In this document: positions 3,683 through 52,152 of the stretch, one piece after another
How the letters are laid out: every line of letters starts with the position of its first letter
How positions within the stretch are numbered: the stretch's first letter is position 1
Assembly: GCF_000801105.2 (NCBI RefSeq)
Contig: NC_079515.1
Span: 1,054,001-1,118,000 of the forward strand
Length of the DNA: 64,000 bases
Reading direction: 5' to 3'
Source of the DNA: Raphanus sativus
Lineage: Eukaryota; Streptophyta; Magnoliopsida; Brassicales; Brassicaceae
Notes under the pieces: model-generated
Seen by the model: only the letters and a program-made list of their open reading frames with translations
Database searches by the model: none
Told to the model about the DNA's origin: nothing
Made by a program: the position numbers and the translations under genes

Positions 3683-5882
3683 ATGCTGACTCTACTCTTC
3701 TCCTCTCTCGGACTCCTCCTTCTTCTCGGTCTTCTCCTCAAATTCGCATTCGCCGACGGTAATAACAACCTTAAGAGTTTTGAATTCAATGTGAACTACC
3801 TTACCTTTAACCTTCTCATATGTGGTTGCTATGGATAGATTATGTAGAACTGATCTGTCGCCTCCTCCTGTAGGGGATTTAACTCTGATCTCGAAGAAGC
3901 ATGTGAAGCGAGAAGCCATAGAAGGCAAGGTACTGGATTGGTAGATAGATAGATATGAATCTAAAATATCCGTTTTTTTTTCCAGATTTTTGATTGATTT
4001 GGTCTTTGCTCTCAGGTGGTTTGGATCACAGGGGCTAGCCGTGGAATTGGTAAGTATGAAAAAAGTCTCCGGCTTTTGATTTGATTGTGTGTCTGGGTTG
4101 GTGCAGCAAGCTCATGTTTATATGATTGAATTGATAGGGGAGGTTCTTGCTAAACAGTTTGCGAGTTTAGGTGCCAAGCTTATTCTCTCTGCCAGGAACG
4201 AAGCTGAGTTGTTTCGTGTTAAGAGTGAGCTCAAAGGTAGTAACTTTATGCAAAAAGTCTCCATTTTTGAAACTATAAAATATTTCTGTTTCGGTTTATT
4301 GATTGGTTAAGCTGTGTTACTACTCTTTAGGTAAGTATGCACCAGAAGATGTCAAGGTTTTGCCTTTAGATCTAGCTAGCGGCGAAGAGGGGCTCAAACA
4401 TGTTGTAGAGCAAGCGGTGTCGCTTTTCCCTGGGGCTGGTGTTGATTATTTGGTTCACAACGCTGCCTATGAGCGTCCGGTTAGTTACTTCCTTACTGTA
4501 TATACAGAGTCTTTTAGTTCAAAGCTATTATTTGTTGTTCAAGGGCGTGTGATCACCATACTCCTTTTCTTGCAGAAATCAAATGCAGTGGATGCCAGCG
4601 AAGAAAATCTTAAGGTATTGAATTTGATTTGTGGGTAAAATCTGTGGGAACTGTACTTGCTTTGTGTTTCTACAGCCAAGAGATTCACTAGCCTCATGTA
4701 TGGGTTTATTGACATATTGGTTAATCAAAATGAAACTTTTGGGTGCAGACTACATTCGAGGTTAATGTATTTGGGACCATATCTCTCACAAAGTTGGTAA
4801 CTCCTCATATGCTGAAACAAGGAGGCGGTCATTTTGTTGTGGTACGTGGATGGAGACTAATGACGTATGCATATACTTTTGGGACAATATCTCTTAATTT
4901 TTTCCATTTTCTTTGGTTAAGTCTCATTATTTAATAATTTAAATCTGTACTCAGATTAGCAGTGCCGCAGGGAAGGTACCATCACCTGGACAGGCTATAT
5001 ATGCCGCTTCAAAACATGCTCTGCAGGGCTACTTCCACAGCTTACGTTCTGAGGTATGTATGTTTGAAGTAAAGAAAGTTGCATAGGTCGCAAATATTAT
5101 TGGCAGTAAATCTTAACAGTTTGTTCAACCATCATGTGCGCATGGGATCAGTTATTTCAGAAGGGAATCAAGGTTACTGTTGTTTGTCCCGGTCCAATAG
5201 AGACCTCAAATGGTACAGGAACATCAACTTCGGAAGACAAGAAGTCTCCTGAGGTTGGTTAACTGATTGATTATGATCTGTTCTATTGCCGTTGCTTTTA
5301 ATCTTTGACTAGGCTTGTAGACACACATTGAAAACTGTTTCTCTTTTTTTTTTCTTTCTCAAGCATACTTTTCTCTTGCCATGCAGAAGCGTGTGTCATC
5401 TGAACGATGTGCAGAACTGACCATAATCGCTGCATCTCATAACTTAAAAGAAGCTTGGATTTCATATCAGGTACCCTTCAAAATCTCGCATTATGTTCCC
5501 ATTCAGTTAAGACGTCTGATATAATGTTTATTTGTGGTCTTTTATCAGCCAGTACTGCTCGTGATGTATCTAGTGCAGTACATGCCTTTCCTTGGCTTCT
5601 GGCTCATGGACAAGGTACTTTATTTATTATATATAATATATTCCATCTTCTTCATAAGTTACTGATGTGAGAAGCCTGTTATTTCCCATTACTATCATAT
5701 CACGTGAAAAAAACATTTGACCAAGAAAATTTCAAGATTGTTTTGGTTATAGGAGCCATTTGTTTAATTTAAGAAATGGAATGGGTTTGCAGGTTGGAGG
5801 GAAACGTGTGGAGGTTGCTGAGAAGAAAGGCAACACATACTCATGGAATTTGCTGTTCCAGAAGAAGACTAAAACAAACTGA
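3683..5882 (+). CDS. Short-chain dehydrogenase/reductase, DHRS7-like (copy 1, intact)
   Basis: Twelve exons give 328 aa: 3683-3758, 3874-3929, 4016-4049, 4138-4236, 4331-4479, 4576-4614, 4749-4841, 4955-5053, 5152-5253, 5387-5470, 5549-5614 and 5793-5882. All have GT-AG borders and the total divides by three. The protein starts with a Leu-rich signal anchor (residues about 1-25), which suggests an ER or endomembrane location. It has the NAD(P)-binding motif TGASRGIG, an NAA-type motif in HNAAYE, NVFGTISL, the catalytic Ser in ISSAAG and YxxxK as YAASK, then CPGPIET. This fits classical SDRs of the DHRS7 type; the Arabidopsis match by order and content is At3g03330. The substrate is unknown. 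It is the only one of the three tandem copies that keeps the original last exon (VGGKRVEVAEKKGN...). Confidence 0.88.
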
Positions 5883-6912
5883 AACTGATCTTCTAGAAAG
5901 TGTCTTTTGATAATAATGAGTTCCGAAGTCTTGTCAGTAGTTGTGGTTCGTGTTTGTGCTCAGCAAGACAGTTTGTTGCCTTGTTAATTACCAGCAGGAT
6001 AAGTTGGATTTTCTAGGCATTGGTTGTAAGAGTTGTTTCGTAGTTTACTGTGATGTTTAGTGAGATATAAGAACTGTTACTTCCTGAGTGGAATTCTTCA
6101 TGAAGAAACTAACTATCAGAACTTGCTGTTGAGTGGTAAAAGAGTTCAAAACTTTTTGAAACACATTCTTTTCGACAATTCTTCATGAAGCTTTGCCTGT
6201 GACCAAGTCCACTAATCCTGTTTAACATATTCTTTTTGACAATTCTTCATGAAGAAACTAACTATCAAAACTTGCTGTTGAGTGGTAAAAGAGTTCAATA
6301 CTCTTGTCTTGAGCAAACAAACATAACATCGGAATTTATTTCAGTATCAGAGTTAAAGAAAAGGAGACTGAAAACGTTGATCTTAGAAACACAACTCATC
6401 TTACTTAGCACTTAGAGGCCGTCTGGCACCGCAACCATCTGCTAACAAAATGTTTGGTGTTTTGCTACAATCACAAAAGACATACAAATGGTTTCAAACT
6501 GTCATGAATTTAGTGAAATGGTTGCAGTTAGATAAATAGATATAAATTTTTTTTTTTAATATTTAAAAATTTTAAATTAAAATTTTTAAATGGAAATATT
6601 ATAAATAAAGATATATATATTTTATATTTTAGTTTAAAAATTCACTTTATTTTCGCGAATCCTATAAAATAAAACCACAGCGTATTAAGAGAAAGACATG
6701 TCAGCGTCCAGAATTATTGAATTAATGATGCGGTGATCTTATGTGTGAGGAAACTCTACTTCATATATATAGATAGATATCTATATATATAGATAGATTG
6801 ATTTTACTCAGTTTGACCAAAAAGATATATTAAAAAGATAGATAGACTTTCCCCCCTAGTTTATAAAACTTGTCCTCACTTTTTTCCTAGCCGTTGCTCA
6901 AACCTAGAAAAA
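5883..6912. other. Spacer between SDR copies 1 and 2
   Basis: It holds the 3' region of copy 1. A direct repeat of about 57 bp follows (gaattcttcatgaagaaact and onward) at about 6092-6149 and 6240-6298. The stretch from about 6690, with GATA-type short repeats at 6768-6845, is duplicated upstream of SDR copy 3 (about 10085-10290), so it belongs to the tandem duplication unit and carries the copy 2 promoter. Confidence 0.6.
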
Positions 6913-9502
6913 ATGCTGAGTCTACTCTTCTTCTTCTTCTTCTCTCTTGGACTCCTCCTTCTTCTTGGTCTTCTCTTCAAATTCGCACATGCCGACGGTA
7001 ATAACTCCTTAAGAGTTTTGAATTCAATGTTAACTTCTGCTCATTTGTGTGGTTGTGATGGTTCATTCTGTATAACTGATTTGTTCTCTGCCTCCTGTAG
7101 GGGATTTAACTCTGATTTCAAAGAAGCATGTGAAGCAAGAAGCCATAGAAGGAAAGGTACTGGATTGATAGAAAGATAGATATGAATCTAAAATATCCGT
7201 TTTTTTTTCTTTTTCAGTTTTTTTATTGATTTGGTATTTGCTCAGGTGGTCTGGATCATAGGGGCTAACCGTGGGATTGGTAACGTCGAGTTTTAATGAT
7301 TATCCGTGAAGAAAAGTCTCCAATTTTTTTGTTTATTGTGGCTGCAGCAGCTTATGTGTTATGTCTTCGTTTATAGGGAAGGCTCTTGCTAAACAATTTG
7401 CAAGTTTAGGTGCCAAGCTTATTCTTTCTGATAGTAATGAAGCTGAGCTGGTTCGTCTTAAGAGTGAGCTCAAAGGTACTGACTTGATGCACAAGTCTCC
7501 AGTTTTGAACTATAATATTTCTGTTTATTGTGATTGACTAAGCAGTGTTCCTCTAGGTAAATATGCACCAGAACATGTCAAGGTTTTGCGTTTTGATTTA
7601 GGCAGCTACGAAGCGTTGCTCAAACGTGTTGTAGCGGAAGCAGTGTCTCTTTTCCCTGGGGATGGTGTTGATTATTTGATCCACAACGTTGCCTATGAGC
7701 TTCCGGTTAGTAATTTCCTTGCTATAAGTTTTGTTATCTACTCAATTGAGAGTCTTCTAGTTCAAAGCTATTATTTTTGTTGTTCAAGGCCGTGTCATCA
7801 CCATACTCTTTTTTTTTTCTTTCAAGAAATTAAACGCAGTGGATGCGAGTGAGGAAAATATTAAGGTATTACTTTAGTTCGGTAAAATCTGTAGACACGA
7901 TAGTTGCTTTGTGTTGCTTTTTATAGTTTTATTGACATATGGTTAATCAATGATCTTTTTGGGTGCAGACTGTATTCAAGGTTAATGTATTTGAGACAAT
8001 ATCTCTCACAAAGTTGGTAGTTCCTCATATGCTGAAACGAGGAGGCGGTCATTTTGTTGTGGTACGTGGAGACTAATGACCAATTGAGATACTTTTTTTG
8101 TTAACATCAATATGTCTAGTTTGTTTGATTGTCCATCAAGTCTCATGATTTAATAACTGAAAGTTAAATCTATAATCAGATTAGCAGTGCCGCAGGGAAG
8201 GTACCATCACCTGGACAGGCTATATATGCTGCTTCAAAACATGCTCTGCATGGCTACTTCCACACCTTACGTTCTGAGGTATGTATGTTTTAAGTAAAGA
8301 AAGTTGCAAATGTTATTGGCAGTAAATCTAACAGTTTGTTCAACCATCATGTGCGCATGGAATCAGTTCTTTCAGAAGGGAATCAAGGTTACTGTTGTTT
8401 GTCCCGGTCCAATTGAAACCTCAAAGGGTACAGGAACATCAACTTCGAAAGACAAGAAGTTTCCTGAGGTTGGTTAACTGATTGATTATGACCTGTTCAT
8501 TAAATTAACGTTGCTTTTAATCTTTGACTAGGCTTGTAGACACACATTGAATCCTCTTCTCTGTCTTTCTTTGAATCTCTGCTTTTATCTTGCCATGCAG
8601 AAGTGTGTGTCATCTGAACGATGTGCAGAACTGATCATAATCGCTGCATCTCATAACTTAAATGAAGCTTGGATTTCATATCAGGTAGGTACCCTTCAAA
8701 ATCTCGCATTATCAGACATCTGATATAATAAATATAATTTTTATTCGTGGTCTTTTATCAGCCAGTACTGCTCGTGATGTATCTAGTGCAGTACATGCCT
8801 TTCATTGGCTTCTGGCTCATGGACAAGGTACTTTATTTATTATATGGTCCATCTTTTTCATAAGTTACTGATATGAGATTCCTGTTATTTAATTTCTTTC
8901 CCATTATTATCATATCATGAAGACGAGAGCTTGTTCGACCTCAACGTACATTGACACTAACGAACTCTTTACAGAATTGAAGGAAAAGGTAAGAAGTAAT
9001 TGCTTGAACAGAGTTGTATGGTCTTTTTGTCTTGTCTTGATGTCCGGTTATGGTGCAGTGGGATGGTCTTGGGATCAAGACGACTGTGATTATATATGGA
9101 AGAGGAGCCATTGTTGCTGTTTGTTTATCTTCCATTCTTGTTTGGTTATCTTCCATTCTTGTTGGTGCCATCAACTCTGTTCCTATGGTAACAATCTTAG
9201 AAGATTAAAAAAAAAAAACCTTTTTGATATCAGAGAGAAGTGGAATGGTTTGACTTGAATGATGTTTGTTTGTTATGAGTGTGTAGCTTCCGAAAGTTTT
9301 AGAGCTTGTTGGTCTAGGGTTTACAGGATGGTTTGTCTACAGATACCTTCTCTTAAAGGTAACTAACTTATCCTAATCTATAGAAGCATCAATGATCTGA
9401 CATGAATGAAAATGTCTATGTTTCTTGTTCTTTCAGTCAAGCAGAAAGGAGTTGGCTGAGGATATTGGTTCCTTGAAGAAGAAGATCACAGGGACCGAAT
9501 AG
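6913..9502 (+). CDS. Chimeric SDR-CURT1 gene (copy 2)
   Basis: Fifteen exons give 412 aa. SDR part: 6913-6997, 7101-7156, 7246-7279, 7377-7475, 7557-7705, 7827-7865, 7969-8061, 8180-8278, 8367-8468, 8601-8684, 8762-8827. CURT1 part: 8923-8988, 9059-9187, 9287-9358, 9437-9502. The first 302 residues match copy 1 up to GFWLMDK. The normal last exon is replaced by about 110 residues of CURVATURE THYLAKOID 1 type: IDTNELFTELKEK, WDGL, TTVIIYG, two hydrophobic helices, then SSRKELAEDIGSLKKK. Known CURT1 proteins are thylakoid four-helix proteins; here the transit peptide is missing and an SDR signal anchor leads instead. The fusion keeps phase 0 and the total divides by three. In the SDR part the cofactor motif reads IGANRGIG (T lost) and NVFG has become NVFE, while YAASK is kept. 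Fusion at the RNA level is inferred; an alternative is separate expression from the ATG at 8917. Confidence 0.7.
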
Positions 9503-10322
9503 ATTCTTTTCATAAAAATAAATAAACAAGCTTCCTTTCTTTGTGTTTTTTCTTTCTGTAATGTGGTTATTATACAATGTGTCTGTTTCAACAATGTATC
9601 TTCTTCAGTCAGTTGCTCAAAAAAAAAAGTCTTCTTCAGTCTCAAACTATTATATTAGATTTACTGGCATCACCGAAACCTATTTAAGATCTGACCGGTG
9701 TAATTACAGTGGTTGTGGACGTTTGCAGATGTAGATGGTTGCGTTTTAAATGTTTTTAAGAGATTTGCATTACTGATACAACGTAAAAAAAATGTCGCAT
9801 TTGCGATGATTGATTAATTACTAAATATAGTCGTGGTAAATAATAAATTAACAATAATTATATTTTATATAAATATAAAGTTTTTAAATTTATAATATTA
9901 TAGTAAATATAAAAATCATATTTATAAAATTTTACTATTAGTTTTTTTGGAAAATATAGAAAATACATTTGTTTTAAAGTTTTATACTATAAATTAAAAT
10001 ATAATATATACATTTTGCTATTTCTATTATTTCAATTTAAAATTGAATATTTTTAGTTTTACATTTTTATTTTAAATGTATTAAAAGAAAAACATATGTC
10101 AACGTTCAGAATTATTGAATTGATGACGTTGTGATCTTATGTGAAGAAACTCTACTTCATATATATAGATAGATATCTGTATATATATAGATAGATTTTA
10201 CACCTGGTTGACCAAAAAAATACTAAAAAGATAGATAGATTCCCCCCACCCCCCCCAGCTTATAAAAACTCTAAAACTTGTCCTCTGTTTCTTATTAGCC
10301 GTTGCTCTCCAAGCCGAGAAAA
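9503..10322. other. 3' region of copy 2 and duplicated promoter of copy 3
   Basis: The first 120 bp match the sequence after the stop of copy 3, so the 3' region is part of the duplicated unit. About 9740-10080 is AT-rich and featureless. About 10085-10290 repeats the promoter block upstream of copy 2 (GATA-type short repeats, then a C-rich run at 10243-10258 and a TATAAAA box). Confidence 0.55.
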
Positions 10323-13300
10323 ATGCTGACTCTACTCTTCTTCTTCTTCTTCTCTCTCGGACTCCTCCTTCTTCTTGGTCTTCTCCTCAAACTCGCATAT
10401 GCCGACGGTAATAACTCCTTACAGAGTTTTGAATTCAATGTTAACTACCTTACCTTCTCATTTATGGTTATAGATTCTGTAGAACTGATTTGTTCTCTGC
10501 CTACTCCTGTAGGGGATTTAACTCTGATTTTGAAGAAGCATGTGAAGCGAGAAGCCATACAAGGAAAGGTACTGGATAGATAGATAGATAAGAATCGAAA
10601 ATATCCGTTTTTTTTCTTTCAGATTTGTGATTGATTTGGTATTTGCTCAGGTGGTCTGGATCACAGTGGCTAACCGTGGGATTGGTAAGTCAAGTTTTAA
10701 TGAAAAGTCTCCAACTTTATATATTGTGGCTGCAGCAGCTCATGTGTTATGTCTTCGTTTATGATTGAATTTTAGGGCAAGCTCTTGCTAAACAGTTTGC
10801 AAGTTTAGGTGCCAAGCTTATTCTTTCTGTTAGGACTGAAGATGAGCTAGTTCGTCTTAAGAGTGAGCTCAAAGGTACTAACTTCAAGAAAAAGTCTCCA
10901 GTTTTTAACTATTGAGCACTCTGTTTACTGTGATTGACTAAGCAGTGTTCCTCTAGGTAAATATGCACCAGAACATGTCAAGGTTTTGCGTTTAAATTAT
11001 GCTACCGGCGAAACGTGGCTCAAAAATGATGTAGAGCAAGCGCTGTCGCTTTTCCCTGGGGCTGGTGTTGATTATTTGATCCACAACGCTGCCTATGAGC
11101 TTCCGGTTAGTAACTTCCTTGCTATAAGTTTTGCATCTACTCAAGAGAGAGTCTTTTAGTTCAAAGCTATTTTTTTTTCTTTTTTTGTTGTTCAAGGGCG
11201 TGTCACTTCATTCTCCTTTTCTTGCAGAAATCAAATGCAGTGGATGCGAGTGAGGAAAATCTTAAGGTATTACATTAGTTGGGTAAAATCTGTAGGCACG
11301 ATAGTTACTTTGTGTTGCTTTATGTTATTCTTATAGATTTATTGACATATGGTTAATCAATGATTTTTGGGTGCAGACTATATTCAAGGTTAATGTATTT
11401 GAGACAATATCTCTCACAAAGTTTGTAATTCCTCATATGCTGAAAAAAGGAGGCGGTCATTTTGTTGTGGTACGTGGATACTAATGACCAGTTGATATAC
11501 TTTTTTTTGTTAACATCAATGTCTAGTGCTCTTAGTTTTGTGAAGCTTCACATAATCACTTTTTGTTAACATATATACTATTAAAGCAGGATATTATTGG
11601 TTTTTTTACTAAAAATACTCATTTATTTAATAACATTGCATATTTAATTAAGGGTAATCAAGTAATATTAATAACAAATCTATAGTGGGTCATTTTTTTT
11701 TTAAATCCAGCCCATTGCCCACATCATCTCTTTTGGGCCATTTGGGCCGAATAACAAATCAGATTCAATTTTTATTTTTTTCGGATTGGGTTCGAGTTGG
11801 ATCTTTCCGGATCCGGGTGGGTTCGGTTCTCATGCATAAGAACCTGAAAAATAACCAAATAACCAAAATATCTAAAACGGGTTCGGTTATTTATACTCAG
11901 AGTAACCAAAGTATCCGATTCGGTTCAATTTTTTGTATCCAAATTACTCAAAAGTAACCAAAAGTAACCAAAAATATCAATTCTATACAGTTTTTTGGAT
12001 AAACTTTTATCCAAACTATCATATTTTATCCAAAAATACTCAAAAGTACTAAAAATGACTACTATAGTTAACTTATGATATTAATTTAAAATATTAAAAT
12101 AATTATAAATATAATTATAACATATATTTTTAGATATATATTCACATTTCGGGTATCTTCGAGTACTCATTTGATTCTCGGTTTGGATAGGGTTCGGATC
12201 GGTTCTTCGGATATAGCAATTTAGAATTCATTCGGATATTTACCCCGGGTCTGATCGGGTTCGGAACCCTGATTTTTGGGTTGGTTCTTCGGGTCCGGAT
12301 ATTGTGATCAGGCCTATACTCATTTAAAATGAAACACGATAAAAAAAGATAAAAAGCTTAAGTTTTTTATAAAAAAAACAAATATATGAAAATATGACAT
12401 TTATTAAATATTTGTCAATTTTAAAAAAAAATAAAGGAAAATAAACCCGCGCTTTAAAAGCGCGGGTCAAAATCTAGTCAATGTCTTATAATCTAAGGTT
12501 CTTAGGATATATAGATTTGTTCATTTACTCTCAGGATTAATAATTGAAAGTTAAATCTATAATCAGATTAGCAGTGCTGCAGGGAAGATACCATCACCTG
12601 GACAGGCTATATATGCTGCTTCAAAACATGCTCTGCAAGGCTACTTCCACACCTTACGTTCCGAGGTATTGTATGTTTTAAGTAAAGAAACTAGGTGGTT
12701 ACCCATGATTCGCGGATATAAATATTATATGTAAATATATATATCATGTATTGAATGTCATAAAATTTCCATAAATTTGATAAAAATAACTGATGAATAT
12801 TTAGTAACAACAAATACTTGTGAAGTTATACATGTAATTATCACATTAACTTCCTCAACACATATTATGCATTTTTTTGAATTTTTGAATTCTTTCTGTT
12901 ATTATTTTTTTATTTAAAATTTTTTCTAATGTTTTTTTAATTTTTTAAATATTTTCTGCTAAATATTTATTTTTCTCTCTAAATAGTAATAAATGAACCA
13001 AAAATCAATTTTATAATTGTTTTCAATCATAACATTACCTTATTTAGCAGAAAATATTACCTTATTTAACATTACCTTATTTATCACATTAACTTCCTCA
13101 ACACATATTATGCATTTTTTTGAATTTTTGAATTCTTTCTGTTATTTTTTTTTTATTTAAAATTTTTTCTAATGTTTTTTTTAATTTTTTAAATATTTCT
13201 GCTAAATATTTATTTTTCTCTCTAAATAGTAATAAATGAACCAAAAATCAATTTTATAATTGTTTTCAATCATAACATTACCTTATTCACTTTATTATTT

Positions 13301-14052
13301 GATTTAAATGTAAAACTTTTTAAATCAAAATTCTCGCATGTTCCGTTAATATAATTCGCTCAATCTTTAAAGCCTAATTATTTATAAAGCATATATGGAC
13401 AGTATAAGAGATTAATAACTATTATAAATATGATTATATTGTTTATTTGAACATATATACACACTGTACTTTAAATACAATATAAATAATTTGAAATTTT
13501 TTGTTTGATAATATAGATTAGATTAGATTAGATTAGGTAATTCTACGATGAGTTTCCTTTAAAAAAACTTAATTAAATAAGTGAAAATTCAAATACCAAC
13601 AACCAAACAAACTAAGAGAATTAATTCTAAACTTCACTTATGAATAACACATAAGCAAAATCCACTTAAATGACTTATCAACTAATACATATGAGGATTT
13701 TTAATTGTACATTATAATTAATCTTTTTATTGATTAATTTTACTTTTAAACCACTTACCATATAATTTTATTATAATCAAAGCTATATGAATTATATTAA
13801 TAGAGTATTAACTCTAGTCTCATATTAGTATAATATTCCGTTTTAAAAATTTTATATTATAATAAACTTGTTAATTTAATACTATTATTTTAAAGGACTT
13901 ACCTTTATAATTTCATATTTTTAAATATACAAATACTTTAATCATTTCTGAAAGTGATAACTCAACCATTTCATCAACATTTGTCATTTAAAAATGACCG
14001 AATTTTTTAAAAGATGTATATTTGACAGTTTTGCATTTATTGGATATATCTT

Positions 14053-14091
<39 letters not shown>

Positions 14092-15800
14092 TGCATAAGA
14101 AATATTATTAGGTTTAAGTTAATTAGTTTTCTGGAACAAAATATTTTTTTGGATTCACTATTAATAAAATAATTAACAAAATATGTTTAAAACTGTTATA
14201 AATTAATTTTAAAATATCATATGTATTTATATGTATATTATAAATATCTTTAATGAAACTTTTGACAAAAAAATATTTTAAAAAAGAAACTTTTGATATT
14301 TAATTGTTTCCATAATCAAATTATTTTAATTCATCTATATTTAAGATGTTTAATAATTTGTTGGTAATATATATAGATTATATTAGGTAATTCTAAGATT
14401 AGTTTCCTTTAAAAAATTTAATTAAATAAATGAAACTTCAAATACCAACAACCAATCAAATTATAAAAATTAATTCTAAACTTCACATATAAATGACACA
14501 TAAGTAAAATTCATTTAAATGATTTCTCAATTAATATATAGGAGGATTGCATGCTAGCTAATATTTTGGCAATAAATCTAACAGTTTGTTCAACCATTAT
14601 GTTCGCATTGAATCAGTTCTATCAGAAGGGAATCAAGGTTACTGTTGTTTGTCCCGGTCCAATAGAAACCTCAAAGGGTACAGGAACATCAACTTCGAAA
14701 GACAAGAAGTCTCCTGAGGTTGGTTAACTGATTGATTGTGATCTGTTCATTAAATTGTCAGCACTTTTTTAAGTACTTTTGCCGTTGAATCCTCTGCTCT
14801 ATCAACTTTTTTTTGGATCTTCTATCTCTTTCTTTTTCTCTTTTAGTTTGTTTTTCTCAAGAATCTAAGTCTCTACGTTTCTCTTGACATGCAGAAGCGT
14901 ATGTCATCTGAAAGATGTGCAGAACTGATCGTAATCGCTGCATCTCATAACTTAAAAGAAGCTTGGATTTCATATCAGGTACCCTTCAAAATCTCGCATT
15001 ATGTTCCACTCAGTTCACACGTCTGATATAATGTTTATAAGGTTTATTTGTGGTCTTTTATCAGCCAGTACTGCTCGTGATGTATCTAGTGCAGTACATG
15101 CCTTTCCTTGGCTTCTGGCTCATGGACAAGGTACTTTATTTATTATATATTCTATCTTCTTCATAAGTTACTGATATGAGAAGTCCTGTTATTTCTTTCC
15201 CATTATTATCATATCATGAAGACGAGAGCTTGTTCGACCTCAACGTACATTGACACCAACGAACTCTTTACAGAAATGAAGGAAAAGGTAAGAAGTAATT
15301 TCTTGAAACAGAGTTGTATGGTCTTTTTGTCTTTGTCTTGATGTCCGGTTATGGTGCAGTGGGATGGTCTTGAGATCAAGACGACTGTGATTATATATGG
15401 AGGAGGAGCCATTATTGCTGTTTGTTTATCTTCCATTCTTGTTTGGTTATCTTCCATTCTTGTTGGTGCCATCAACTCTGTTCCTCTGGTAACAATCTTA
15501 TAAGATAAGAAAAAAACCTTTTTGATATCAGAGAGAAGTGGAATGGTTTTGACTTGAATGATGTTTGTTTGTTTGTTATGAGTGTGTAGCTTCCGAAAGT
15601 TTTGGAGGTTGTTGGTCTCGGGTGCACAGGATGGTTTGTCTACAGATACCTTCTCTTAAAGGTAACTAACTTATCCTAATCTATAGAAGCATCAATGATC
15701 TGACATGAATTGAAAATGTCTATGTTTCTTGTTCTTTCAGTCAAGCAGAAAGGAGTTGGCTGAGGATATTGGTTCCTTGAAGAAGAAGAGGGCCGAATAG
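10323..15800 (+). CDS. Chimeric SDR-CURT1 gene with Helitron-enlarged introns (copy 3)
   Basis: Fifteen exons give 410 aa: 10323-10407, 10513-10568, 10651-10684, 10776-10874, 10957-11105, 11228-11266, 11377-11469, 12567-12665, 14617-14718, 14895-14978, 15065-15130 (SDR), then 15222-15287, 15360-15488, 15590-15661, 15741-15800 (CURT1-like). The layout is the same as copy 2, and all borders are GT-AG with a total divisible by three. The SDR nucleotide motif reads TVANRGIG, so the first Gly of TGxxxGxG is lost, and NVFG is NVFE; the active-site YAASK remains. Introns 7 and 8 are 1.1 and 1.95 kb because of Helitrons, against roughly 0.1 kb each in copies 1 and 2. The tail ends KKKRAE rather than KKKITGTE. 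Catalytic activity is doubtful; the open frame suggests a recent origin or continued constraint. Confidence 0.68.
11572..12477 (+). mobile_element. Helitron in intron 7 of SDR-CURT1 copy 3
   Basis: It starts near TATATACTATTAAAGCAGG (a TC-to-TA variant of the usual start) and ends with the hairpin CCCGCGCTTTAAAAGCGCGGG plus TCAAAATCTAG, inserted between A and T. The empty site TTGTTAACATCAATGTCT can be read across the junction and also occurs uninterrupted just upstream at about 11508. The interior holds degenerate GGTTCGG/TTCGGGT arrays (11780-12300). Confidence 0.75.
12691..14546 (-). mobile_element. Reverse-oriented composite Helitron in intron 8 of copy 3
   Basis: The block is absent from the same intron of copies 1 and 2. 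It begins with CTAG after an A, and next to it is an imperfect hairpin (read on the minus strand CCGCGAATCATGG). It ends with GA before T; the minus-strand start reads TCCTCCTATATATTAATTGAG. A similar 5'-end-like stretch recurs inside at about 13600-13700, so two related elements may be joined. It also holds an internal duplication at 12841-13287 and a (TA)n run at about 14055-14088. Confidence 0.5.
12841..13287. repeat. Tandem duplication inside the intronic Helitron
   Basis: A unit of about 204 bp beginning TCACATTAACTTCCTCAACA occurs at 12841-13045 and again at 13084-13287, a period of 243 bp, with only small length changes in T runs. A duplication this well conserved must be recent. Confidence 0.8.
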
Positions 15801-15996
15801 ATTCTTTTCATAAAAATAAATAAACAAGCTTTCTTTCCTTCTGGAGTTTTTTTTTTGTAATGTGATTATTATACAATGTCTCTGTTTCAACAATGTATCT
15901 TCTTCAGTCTCAAAATTTATTTGACACTGTCAGAGTTTAAAAAGAGATCTTAGAAACACACTCATTTTACTTAGCACATAGTAAGATTATCTGCTC

Positions 15997-48033: not shown

Positions 48034-49413
48034 CAGGAAATAAGCTTCACCATGTTGTAAGCTATGCATTCAAAAACCCAAACTGATCAGTAGGAAGAGA
48101 AACACCTGAGGAATTCACCAAAACCAATCTTCTCCAAATGTTGCTTTCATATCAATACCTCCGCTCGTCACTTCTGTTGGAACTCCGTTTATAAACACCA
48201 TTATAGACCCTGAATTTCAAAATATATCTAATAATATGTAAAACATCAGCTTATTGCCTATCAAGATCGAGATTAGGCAATATTGGAGGAGCAATTAACC
48301 TAATAGTCCAAGAAGGCGGTTCTTTGGGTGAAACTCATCTGAAATTTGATTCCCTCCCCCTCTTTAAAATAGCTTTTATAGTAAAATTATGAGATCTAGA
48401 GAGTTTTTTGCTATCTAGAAGAACAGAAAATAACTTCAGGTATATAAGAAAAAAATAGACAATAGAACTTGCTCCCAAATACAAAATGTTAGGTAGTATC
48501 GGAAATATAATTAACAAAAGCTACTTATCAATTAAATTACCACATAAAAATCGGTTATTTGGTTGAAACCCACCCAGAATTGTTTTCTCCTACGTTTAAA
48601 CAGCTTTACAATTTTAAAATGTTACTTTAATAGTCTTTCTGGGGAAAGAAAGAGGGTTTAGAGGAGAAAGCACTTCAGTTTACAAAGAAAAAAAAGAGGC
48701 ATGCAAATTATTCATTTTGTTTACCTTGTTGGTAGTGATAATTGGAGCTTTGATCAGATGGGCACAAAATCGATTCGACATTTGAGCTATGATAATTATA
48801 GTGATGCTGATTAGCTCATGGTAACCATTTGACCAGACATTGTTAAGAGATTCTCCATGCCATTATTGCTATGATCATCACATCCAGCGCCATAAGAAGA
48901 GCTAGCTGAAGAAGTGGAAGAGGAGCTTTAACAGGAAGGAGGATATAAGAAGAAAGAAATACAAAGAAAGAAGGAAGGAACTTGAAAATGACCACCAAAT
49001 AAGTAATTAGAAGTGCTACAACCTCCAAACCCAAATCACTTCCACTATGTTCTGGCAAGTTGTTGCTCACCATCATGGTCTGGTCACAAGTGTTGGTGAC
49101 TGTGGCCGCTTCTGCTGCTGCAGCCTGGAGTTGCCGCTGCCTTCGGCGAGATCTTGACCGCCGGTTTTGAAACCAGTAGAAGACATTTGCATCTCCCACC
49201 TTTCCGAATTTCTCCAGCATCTTTCGTATCCTTACCGTCTCTTCTTTGGGAGGGTTAACCATAACACTGTTGAAGATTGACTCAAGTATGAGTATTTGTT
49301 CCGGCTTAGGTGACCATCGTGAGCGAACTGTTTCGTTTGAGGTGGACCGGAAGCGGAGGAAGAAGGAGAGTGGCTATGGCCGGTTGTGCTATGTGGTTTT
49401 TTTCTTTGTCCAT
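48034..49413 (-). pseudogene. Extra WOX11 copy with frame errors (probable assembly duplicate)
   Basis: This segment repeats 50068-51453 almost exactly, including flanks from the GA tract to AAGCTCAAAAA just before the gap. It differs mostly by single-base insertions or deletions: one base missing in the Ser-rich N terminus (GTGGACCGG versus GTGGAACCGG), one in the variable region (GGTGGTCATTTTC versus GGTGGGTCATTTC), and an added T in the last-but-one exon. These break the frame several times. The homeobox itself (49.1-49.3 kb) is intact. The pattern suits an unmerged contig overlap or a poorly polished haplotype better than a real tandem gene. Confidence 0.7.
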
Positions 49414-49904
49414 TGTTTTCAAAAAAAAAATTGAAATTGTTTAGTTGATTCTTTTTTTTTTGTTGTTGCGTAATAAAAGAGAGAAAATGTTTTGTATGTT
49501 TATGACTTTGTGAGGTGTTTGACTATGTGTAAACCCATGAATTTATAGGAGGGAAGATTTCTTAAAATAATAGTTATATTTTTTTCCTTGTTTACTAAGT
49601 TACAATGTGGTTTTATCTTTATCTTTTAGAGGTTTTTGTTTAGAATATTACTTGAAATGTGTTTTTTACATATATTATGTTTTGCTATACCGCTAGGTGT
49701 ACAAATATTAGACTATAAGTGTTAACGCGTACTTGGAGTAGATCTGCTTTGCAGGTGAAGATATAGCAAATATGCAAATCATATTTGAGCTTGGTCAGTA
49801 TGGAATAGTCGTAGAATGTGTACAAAAGGTTTACAGTATTCCGTTTCCGTGTTGATTTGCATGGGCCAATTAAATTCACTATATGCATGTTCCAAGCTCA
49901 AAAA

Positions 49905-50004
49905 NNNNNNNNNNNNNNNNNNNNNNNNNNNNNNNNNNNNNNNNNNNNNNNNNNNNNNNNNNNNNNNNNNNNNNNNNNNNNNNNNNNNNNNNNNNNNNNN
50001 NNNN
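49905..50004. other. Assembly gap (100 N)
   Basis: Exactly 100 N separate the two WOX11 segments. The left contig ends at a point that matches 51942 in the right contig, and the right contig begins inside the GA tract that the left contig holds at 47886-48008, so the contig ends overlap by about 2 kb. Confidence 0.99.
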
Positions 50005-50046
<42 letters not shown>

Positions 50047-50067
50047 ATATGAGATTTGAACCATTAC

Positions 50068-51453
50068 CAGGAAATAAGCTTCACCATGTTGTAAGCTATG
50101 CATCAAAAACCCAAACTGATCAGTAGGAAGAGAAACACCTGAGGAATTCACCAAAACCAAATCTTCTCCAAATGTTGCTTTCATATCAATACCTCCGCTC
50201 GTCACTTCTGTTGGAACTCCGTTTATAAACACCATTATAGACCCTGAATTTCAAAATATATCTAATAATATGTAAAACATCAGCTTATTGCCTATCAAGA
50301 TCGAGATTAGGCAATATTGGAGGAGCAATTAACCTAATAGTCCAAGAAGGCGGTTCTTTGGGTGAAACTCATCTGAAATTTGATTCCCTCCCCCTCTTTA
50401 AAATAGCTTTTATAGTAAAATTATGAGATCTAGAGAGTTTTTTGCTATCTAGAAGAACAGAAAATAACTTCAGGTATATAAGAAAAAAATAGACAATAGA
50501 ACTTGCTCCCAAATACAAAATGTTAGGTAGTATCGGAAATATAATTAACAAAAGCTACTTATCAATTAAATTACCACATAAAAATCGGTTATTTGGTTGA
50601 AACCCACCCAGAATTGTTTTCTCCTACGTTTAAAACAGCTTTACAATTTTAAAATGTTACTTTAATAGTCTTTCTGGGGAAAGAAAGAGGGTTTAGAGGA
50701 GAAAGCACTTCAGTTTACAAAGAAAAAAAAGAGGCATGCAAATTATTCATTTTGTTTACCTTGTTGGTAGTGATAATTGGAGCTTTGATCAGATGGGCAC
50801 AAAATCGATTCGACATTTGAGCTATGATAATTATAGTGATGCTGATTAGCTTCATGGTAACCCATTTGACCAGACATTGTTAAGAGATTCTCCATGCCAT
50901 TATTGCTATGATCATCACATCCAGCGCCATAAGAAGAGCTAGCTGAAGAAGTGGAAGAGGAGCTTTAACAGGAAGGAGGATATAAGAAGAAAGAAATACA
51001 AAGAAAGAAGGAAGGAACTTGAAATGACCCACCAAATAAGTAATTAGAAGTGCTACAACCTCCAAACCCCAAATCACTTCCACTATGTTCTGGCAAGTTG
51101 TTGCTCACCATCATGGTCTGGTCACAAGTGTTGGTGACTGTGGCCGCTTCTGCTGCTGCAGCCTGGAGTTGCCGCTGCCTTCGGCGAGATCTTGACCGCC
51201 GGTTTTGAAACCAGTAGAAGACATTTGCATCTCCCACCTTTCCGAATTTCTCCAGCATCTTTCGTATCCTTACCGTCTCTTCTTTGGGAGGGTTAACCAT
51301 ACCACTGTTGAAGATTGACTCAAGTATGAGTATTTGTTCCGGCTTAGGTGACCATCGTGAGCGAACTGTTTCGTTTGAGGTGGAACCGGAAGCGGAGGAA
51401 GAAGGAGAGTGGCTATGGCCGGTTGTGCTATGTGGTTTTTGTTCTTTGTCCAT
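50068..51453 (-). CDS. WOX11: WUSCHEL-related homeobox protein, WOX11 type
   Basis: The first block is 51453-50760 and the next exon 50243-50068; the last exon is probably 46686-46669. A Ser-rich N terminus ([15 protein letters not shown]) leads to a WUS-type homeodomain: [40 protein letters not shown] and [20 protein letters not shown]. The C terminus has [20 protein letters not shown] and [16 protein letters not shown], specific to WOX11/12. In Arabidopsis WOX11 drives root founder-cell and crown-root formation. The neighbour EDA5 supports WOX11 (At3g03660). An in-frame TAA occurs at 50965-50967. Splicing a 66-nt GT-AG segment (51028-50963) would remove it and give about 273 aa, close to the 268 aa I recall for WOX11; otherwise the protein is cut off after the homeodomain. 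Confidence 0.8.
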
Positions 51454-52152
51454 TGTTTTCAAAAAAAAAATTGAAATTGTTTAGTTGATTCTTTTTTTTT
51501 TGTTGCTTATGCGTAATAAAAGAGAGGAAAATGTTTTTGTATGTTTATGACTTTGTGAGGTGTTGACTATGTGTAAACCCATGAATTTATAGGAGGAAGA
51601 TTTCTAAAATAATAGTATATTTTTTTCCTTGTTTACTAAGTTACATGTGGTTTTATCTTTATCTTTTAGAGGTTTTTGTTAGAATATACTTGAAATGTGT
51701 TTTTAACATATATTATGTTTTGCTATACCGCTAGGTGTACAAATATTAGACTATAAGTGTTAACGCGTACTTGGAGTAGAATCTGCTTTGCAGGTGAAGA
51801 TATAGCAAATATGCAAATCACATTTGAGCTTGGTCAGTATGGATAGTCGTAGAATGTGTACAAAAGGTTTACAGTATTCCGTTTCCGTGTTGATTTGCAT
51901 GGGCAATTAAATTCACTATATGCATGTTCCAAGCTCAAAAATATCAAATTTGCGGTAATGGTACCTTAAAAGGTTAGCTATGGATTATCATTTTTAATCT
52001 AGTCTAACAAACAACAACAAAAATGCACTTGCAAACAAGTTCAGTCTAGTTATTTGAATGCAGTTGTGTCAGACGGGTTAGGCCGGTTCTGCTCAATCGG
52101 AATCCAGCTCCATGTGAAATTTAATAGTCGGTTGATGCAAATCTTTAGTGAT
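51454..52152. other. WOX11 upstream region
   Basis: Leader and promoter of WOX11. The stretch to 51942 is the part duplicated left of the gap; unique sequence follows. No other coding signal is visible. Confidence 0.45.

Follow-up and report, generated by a model that had tools for sequence, protein, structure and literature searches.

A pair of tandem SDR-CURT1 chimeric gene models in Raphanus sativus

Two neighbouring gene copies of Raphanus sativus raise the question of whether a dehydrogenase of the SDR family (DHRS7-like) and a CURT1 (CURVATURE THYLAKOID 1) protein have been joined into one gene, or whether two neighbours are only read as one. The window, that is, the whole stretch of 64,000 nucleotides (nt) that was analysed (assembly GCF_000801105.2, contig NC_079515.1, positions 1,054,001 to 1,118,000 of the forward strand), was found to contain three SDR gene copies in tandem on its + strand when gene models were rebuilt exon by exon from the DNA. 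Judged from this DNA, copies 2 and 3 are a real pair of chimeric genes, for which the nearest native donor and an unfused sister were identified. All positions below are those of the window.

The first 11 SDR exons were found to be common to copies 1, 2 and 3, followed in copies 2 and 3 by the presence of four CURT1 exons in phase. By exon model and Pfam, copy 1 (3683-5882, + strand) is an unfused SDR gene of 12 exons and 328 amino acids with its own exon 12 at 5793-5882, and copy 2 (6913-9502, + strand) and copy 3 (10323-15800, + strand) are SDR-CURT1 fused gene models of 15 exons with predicted products of 412 and 410 amino acids, respectively. All introns of the three copies were GT-AG and the exon models contained no internal stops. 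The Pfam domain adh_short scored 168.2, 156.7 and 142.2 bits in copies 1, 2 and 3 (cut-off 26.6), and CAAD (PF14159, the CURT1 domain) scored 83.5 bits in copy 2 and 76.7 bits in copy 3 (cut-off 30.7) and was absent from the Pfam listing for copy 1. The initial annotation of this DNA, which had proposed an unfused copy 1 and the in-phase run of copies 2 and 3 into four CURT1 exons, is borne out on both points by the exon models and Pfam, and its product lengths and its junctions 8827|8923 and 15130|15222 were exactly reproduced.

In copy 2 (+ strand), exon 11 (8762-8827) is the final SDR exon; it encodes a hydrophobic segment and ends in phase 0. It is followed by the chimeric intron 11 (8828-8922), which consists of SDR intron to about 8917 and then of 5-6 nt of a former CURT1 exon. 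The rest of this CURT1 exon, which was cut in its middle, forms exon 12 (8923-8988) with the amphipathic-helix part, followed by exon 13 (9059-9187) with CURT1 membrane helix 1 and a 21-nt in-frame tandem duplication (array 9118-9163), exon 14 (9287-9358) with membrane helix 2, and exon 15 (9437-9502) with the C-terminal helix and the stop; the labels of exons 12 and 14 come from family comparison. The captured CURT1 3′ untranslated region (UTR) and 3′ flank occupy 9503-9686, where the homology to a native CURT1 gene, termed C9 below, extends up to 9686 with a terminal stretch of 56 nt at 77%. Copy 3 (+ strand) was found to contain an equivalent chimeric intron 11 (15131-15221, breakpoint 15216), followed by CURT1 exons 12-15 within 15222-15800 (15222-15287, 15360-15488, 15590-15661 and 15741-15800) and the CURT1 3′ UTR (15801-15913), and homology to copy 1 resumes beyond about 15913, with the part of its 3′ flank that starts near 6335. 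Introns 7 (11470-12566) and 8 (12666-14616) of copy 3 are swollen by inserted DNA; two 210-nt direct repeats, 96% identical and 243 nt apart, lie within intron 8 at 12835-13287.

The point of joining could be placed closely. The homology of copies 2 and 3 to copy 1 extends past exon 11 into the following intron and breaks off in both at one and the same base, 5702 of copy 1, which corresponds to 8917 and 15216, so that the breakpoint lies within SDR intron 11 and within a CURT1 exon. The C9 gene reads ATGAAGACGAGAGC within an exon, and the fused copies carry the same letters right after the SDR intron; one junction base is ambiguous and could derive from the SDR or the CURT1 side. The former CURT1 exon letters at the junction are ATGAAG (8917-8922), the source of the AAG acceptor of exon 12. 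Because the junction letters are shared with the C9 exon, this acceptor is former CURT1 coding sequence and the ATG at 8917 a former internal Met codon.

A blastn search of the window with 5616-6340 (intron 11, exon 12 and 3′ flank of copy 1; E up to 0.01) matched only the query itself, the repeats within it and the beginning of intron 11 that the copies have in common, and no second SDR exon 12 or 3′ UTR was found. The loss of their own last exon by copies 2 and 3, as claimed earlier, is therefore confirmed by this search, and the SDR 3′ UTR has gone with it. From the breakpoint and the rejoined flank of copy 1, the event is therefore read as an exchange in which a CURT1 3′ end took the place of the SDR one. 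The possibility that transcription simply continues into a complete CURT1 gene next door was rejected, since the fragment begins in the middle of an exon and the SDR last exon is missing; of the two explanations left open by the initial annotation, a fusion protein or a read-through of neighbours, the second accordingly fails in the form of a transcript that passes a retained SDR terminator and enters an intact neighbour. A 65-nt direct repeat (6092-6305, 95%, starts 149 nt apart) was also found in the flank downstream of copy 1.

When 8917-9502 was searched against the plant's own 433-Mb assembly, at least five matches were obtained, namely the two copies in the window and three native CURT1 loci, on C9 (79% identity), C2 (74%) and C3 (73%); the match counts in this assembly, here and for the copy 1 protein below, are lower bounds. 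The synonymous divergence (dS) of the fragment to C9 was 0.143 for copy 2 and 0.090 for copy 3, compared with 0.20-0.35 to C2 and C3, and in an unrooted tree of the five sequences the split of copies 2, 3 and C9 from C2 and C3 received a support of 100. By these measures the CURT1 fragment is nearest to the native gene on C9 among the matches listed, and the dS between C9 and the fragment is an upper limit for the capture. The fragment was found without the first CURT1 exon, and with its introns and 3′ end kept. The upstream exon of the C9, C2 and C3 loci resembles what we take to be the transit peptide of Arabidopsis CURT1A. A search of the window (E up to 0.1) with C9 exon 1 and with the 300 nt preceding the breakpoint gave no match, which upholds the earlier statement that the fusion is without a transit-peptide exon.

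The protein search with copy 1 in the same assembly gave at least 59 matches. Among the matches listed, the close SDR relatives outside the window were three, all gene pieces, and the others were 27-35% identical. One piece with exons 3-5 (L022 3100-3653, on C2) resembles copy 2 (82%) more than copy 1 (71%), one covers the exon-5 region (L023 3506-3822, on C4), and one (L021 4645-4955, on C6) contains the last SDR exon, which is missing from copies 2 and 3.

Two routes of capture were considered. Retroposition was rejected, because the CURT1 part still has its introns. Helitron capture was considered with one 3′-end motif (up to two mismatches), which was found at 1496-1518, 2547-2569 and 12456-12478 and not at the fragment borders. 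Three elements with the same terminal AAAAGCGCGGGTCAAAATCTAGT, presumably a Helitron-like 3′ end, were observed at 827-1518, 1881-2569 and about 11575-12478, their starts being placed by eye or from repeats, and the third of them sits within intron 7 of copy 3.

The joining required little luck in phase, because SDR intron 11 is in phase 0 and all four CURT1 exons are multiples of three with a phase 0 start. The acceptor of exon 12 (8922/15221) scored -2.04, lower than all 37 other acceptors of these genes, on a small matrix made from those 37. The native C9 gene likewise has AAG at the intron before exon 13 (own gene model), and the acceptors of exons 13-15 retain scores of 5.6-9.7. Skipping of exon 12 would keep the frame, because this exon has 66 nt and phase 0, and splicing of exon 11 to exon 13 gives 390 (copy 2) and 388 (copy 3) amino acids without the amphipathic part. 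With retention of intron 11 the SDR stops after 11 extra residues at 313 amino acids in both copies. Transcription through the fusion is probable, because another SDR 3′ end was not found. In copy 2 a further weak splice site was found at exon 6 (7817-7827), where the acceptor is AAG in place of the CAG of copies 1 and 3.

The order of the events was approached through synonymous distances. In the SDR part, dS was 0.146 between copies 1 and 2 and 0.132 between copies 1 and 3; for copy 2 against copy 3, the SDR part gave 0.067 and the CURT1 part 0.054 (difference p=0.79). The order of duplication, fusion and second duplication given in the initial annotation is compatible with these distances, although the ranges for the first two steps overlap (0.13-0.15 and 0.09-0.14). 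The introns gave a different picture, with 3 differences between copies 2 and 3 over 244 CURT1 intron sites and 83 over 722 SDR intron sites (poorly aligned intron 9 excluded). Copy 3 introns 7 and 8, with their inserted DNA, gapped columns and, in one comparison, copy 1 exon 12 were excluded from the counts. The CURT1 3′ UTR differs at 9 of 114 sites, and pooled with the introns (12/358) it is still below the SDR introns (p=3e-6). The drop in divergence is not sharp at the junction; intervals across 8182-8481 already differ by only 4-5% between copies 2 and 3. A tail about ten times younger than the SDR duplication, as based on the introns, was rejected as the main reading in view of the dS values (0.054 against 0.067), the UTR (9/114) and the low divergence upstream, and the contrast between the introns is likely due to gene conversion towards the 3′ end of these two copies.

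In both halves of copies 2 and 3, amino-acid constraint is weak if present at all. With copy 1 as outgroup, the SDR changes private to copy 2 were 25 nonsynonymous (N) to 8 synonymous (S) and those private to copy 3 were 20 N to 5 S, where three ambiguous sites were dropped and two codons with two changes each were counted twice. Pooled, the 45 N to 13 S do not reveal constraint against the 73% N expected without it (p=0.55), whereas the changes separating copy 1 from both fused copies, 21 N to 20 S, show constraint (p=0.004). The CURT1 part of the fusion lineage contained 14 N to 4 S (stem 7:1, copy 2 3:3, copy 3 4:0), in contrast to 8 N to 16 S on the three native CURT1 tips (p=0.006); five multi-state sites, one homoplasic site and seven middle-branch changes (2 N to 5 S) are excluded from this count. 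The pairwise ratio of nonsynonymous to synonymous divergence (dN/dS) in the CURT1 part was 0.12-0.14 for the native pairs and 0.45 and 0.65 for C9 against the two fused copies. The comparison of dN/dS for each half, which the initial annotation had proposed, was thus run as N:S counts and pairwise values, and constraint was undetectable in both halves of the fused copies.

The reading frame behaved differently from the introns around it. Between copies 2 and 3, the SDR exons contained 0 insertions or deletions (indels) in 906 nt and the SDR introns 21 in 854 nt (introns 7 and 8 excluded; p=2e-5), of which 15 are not multiples of three. Three indels were found in the CURT1 exons since capture (9, 21 and 6 nt), all of them multiples of three, and in the CURT1 introns seven of the nine indels between C9 and copy 2, and six of the seven between C9 and copy 3, are not; the exon and intron rates since capture differ at p=0.002. 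For copies 2 and 3 only, the corresponding CURT1 contrast was 5 per 244 nt in the introns against 0 per 327 nt in the exons (p=0.014). One indel alignment took in CURT1 exons 12-14 (267 nt) and the rate tests 327 nt, and the 6-nt gap of exon 15 was taken from other alignments. These p values are optimistic, because the intron indels lie partly in simple (T/A) runs. No frameshift was found in either half, though the intron indel rates predict several. In the SDR half about 2.4 stops are expected among 58 changes and none was found (P about 0.10), so that the earlier remark that all exons have stayed open is weak when taken alone, and becomes real evidence when set beside the intron indels.

By hydropathy, an N-terminal hydrophobic anchor and the hydrophobic stretch of exon 11 were found in all copies, followed by the presence of CURT1 helix 1 in copies 2 and 3. 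CURT1 helix 2 was below the threshold in the fused copies, and also (0.94) in what we take to be the Arabidopsis protein. The classical SDR motif consists of Tyr-x-x-x-Lys and an upstream Ser, and SSAAGK and YAASK were found to be present in all three copies. The SDR cofactor motif TGxxxGxG reads TGASRGIG in copy 1, IGANRGIG in copy 2 and TVANRGIG in copy 3, so that the glycine-rich motif carries T52I in copy 2 and G53V, at the first Gly, in copy 3. DHRS4, an SDR in the PDB and reportedly an active enzyme, has Ala at the position of the copy 3 Val in the alignment, and a loss of activity of copy 3 is therefore not certain.

Four helical parts are described for CurT homologues in the portion of the source consulted (PMC12462475), on which the count of membrane passes also rests. 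The corresponding CURT1 parts (amphipathic, two membrane and C-terminal) all align to the native genes in copies 2 and 3. Helix 1 was found to be lengthened by 7 residues through the 21-nt tandem repeat in both fused copies, a repeat that is absent from the three native genes. An Arg stands just before helix 1 in copy 2 where C9, C2, C3 and copy 3 have Gly, and the C-terminus of copy 3 is shortened relative to native CURT1. A PDB search with the CURT1 part gave 0 matches at E up to 1. The absence of the transit peptide points to the endoplasmic reticulum (ER) or an ER-derived membrane as the likely site of the fused protein. Insertion of CAAD into other membranes would be plausible, because CAAD targets ValRS to the plasma membrane of E. 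coli, while its removal from ValRS has little catalytic effect, according to the part of PMC4893482 consulted.

The favoured reading, to which a probability of roughly 0.6 is given, is that a C9-like CURT1 piece was fused into an SDR copy, and that the fused gene was later duplicated and is probably transcribed through and translated. The junction sequence shows that a CURT1 piece without its first exon became attached within intron 11 of one of the tandem SDR copies, where it stands in place of the SDR last exon and 3′ UTR. The distances suggest that a subsequent duplication of the fused gene gave rise to copies 2 and 3, whose tails later became somewhat homogenised. Transcripts would most likely run through, because the only recognisable 3′ end downstream is that of CURT1, with exon 11 spliced to exon 12, or to exon 13 if the weak acceptor is skipped. 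The product would be an SDR with an N-terminal anchor and a CURT1 membrane region, made at the ER and not in the chloroplast. The frame was kept while amino-acid changes accumulated in each half at the proportion expected under neutrality, so that translation is probable, with a product that is either tolerated or diverging. Copies 2 and 3 would thus be fast-changing genes whose CURT1 part gives no sign of still doing CURT1's job, and a membrane-bending role of the fused proteins is not supported. Several points weigh against this reading: the low divergence of the CURT1 introns means that the tail may have its own history, the neutral N:S in both halves could mean decay, the intron indels in T/A runs inflate the expected number of frameshifts, the exon-12 acceptor is the weakest of the set, and the locus is known from one assembly only.

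A rival reading is decay: copies 2 and 3 would be drifting pseudogenes that are open by chance, with a CURT1 tail of no use beyond its 3′ end. The neutral N:S in both halves, the changes T52I and G53V in the cofactor motif, the weak acceptors of exon 12 and, in copy 2, of exon 6, and the Gly-to-Arg change before helix 1 in copy 2 fit with it, and the absence of stops alone is not telling. It is nevertheless considered rather unlikely, as the 906 nt of SDR exons are free of indels whereas the introns have 15 frame-breaking ones over 854 nt, the three CURT1 exon indels are all multiples of three, YAASK and a full-length adh_short match were found in all copies, and the solved SDR DHRS4 has Ala at the position of the copy 3 Val. 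Two separate transcription units, a truncated SDR ending in intron 11 and a short CURT1 starting at the ATG at 8917/15216, could be formed in principle, since retention of intron 11 gives the same 313 amino acids in both copies and the ATG at the junction, which encoded an internal Met in the native gene, shares its frame with CURT1. Such an arrangement is improbable; the short CURT1 form, itself without a transit peptide, would require a new promoter, C9 exon 1 and the 300 nt that precede the breakpoint are without a match in the window, and copies 2 and 3 have neither the SDR last exon nor its 3′ UTR. Least probable would be a new function under positive selection, in which the CURT1 domain bends or clusters an ER-type membrane around the SDR. 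The sequence of all four helical parts and the reading frame have been kept, and in E. coli CAAD directs a protein to a membrane that is not a thylakoid, in the text available from PMC4893482, but N:S is no higher than under neutrality, and the 7-residue insertion in helix 1, the Gly-to-Arg change of copy 2 and the shortened C-terminus of copy 3 are unlike a conserved bending domain.

Downstream of the three copies, the region 22627-51462 (8 open reading frames scanned) was found to contain genes in the order PPR-DYW, SWIB, ribosomal S2, MATE, exostosin GT47 and homeodomain, an order which, as we take it, resembles the Arabidopsis stretch At3g03330-At3g03660. A tandem duplication of about 2.03 kb lies at 48120-51462, with blocks 48120/50154, 48595/50630, 48825/50862 and 49027/51065 that are 98-100% identical, and carries two homeodomain gene pieces, presumably of WOX11 type. 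This duplication is either recent or an assembly artefact.

Under the favoured reading of a fused and duplicated gene, the locus would offer a datable new multidomain plant gene whose nearest donor, unfused sister and breakpoint are found together in a single genome. From it one could learn whether a domain for thylakoid curvature is able to anchor or shape the membrane of a different organelle, and what becomes of a fusion that has a poor splice site. The CURT1 part was also sought in bacterial and viral contigs, where 0 of 141 and 46 pattern matches, respectively, were confirmed.

Among known genes, the native CURT1 genes on C9, C2 and C3 have the same exon pattern and 3′ end as the fragment, and they differ from it in that the fragment has a 21-nt insertion and a 9-nt deletion (and a further 6 nt in copy 3) and no first exon. 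The SDR half presumably belongs to the family of At3g03330 (DHRS7-like), judging from the Arabidopsis gene order as we take it; unlike At3g03330, copies 2 and 3 are without the last exon. The label SDR34C for At3g03330 was taken from a table in PMC3541173. Plant chimeric genes formed by the capture of gene pieces are described for Pack-MULEs, Helitrons and retroposed chimeras in the part of PMC13317346 consulted. Such chimeras likewise join pieces of two genes, and unlike the retroposed ones the fused copies keep their introns. No SDR-CURT1 fusion was found in the literature by titles and the starts of abstracts, plant protein sets not being searched. The initial annotation knew of no such architecture, and to our knowledge there is likewise no SDR-CURT1 protein, nor any plant enzyme fused to CAAD. 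Enzyme-CAAD fusions are, however, known from cyanobacteria, where, in the portion of the source seen, CAAD was gained repeatedly by aminoacyl-tRNA synthetases (ValRS, LeuRS, IleRS and GluRS) as a membrane anchor (PMC4893482). It is doubtful, and put forward only tentatively, that copies 2 and 3 encode an ER-type enzyme with a curvature domain outside the chloroplast, kept by selection while diversifying and arisen independently of these cyanobacterial fusions. The likeness lies in the kind of fusion only, an enzyme with an acquired CURT1/CAAD membrane domain; unlike the cyanobacterial synthetases, the fused copies have an intron-bearing plant SDR (adh_short) as host, a C-terminal CAAD domain without visible constraint, and an N-terminus that was already hydrophobic.

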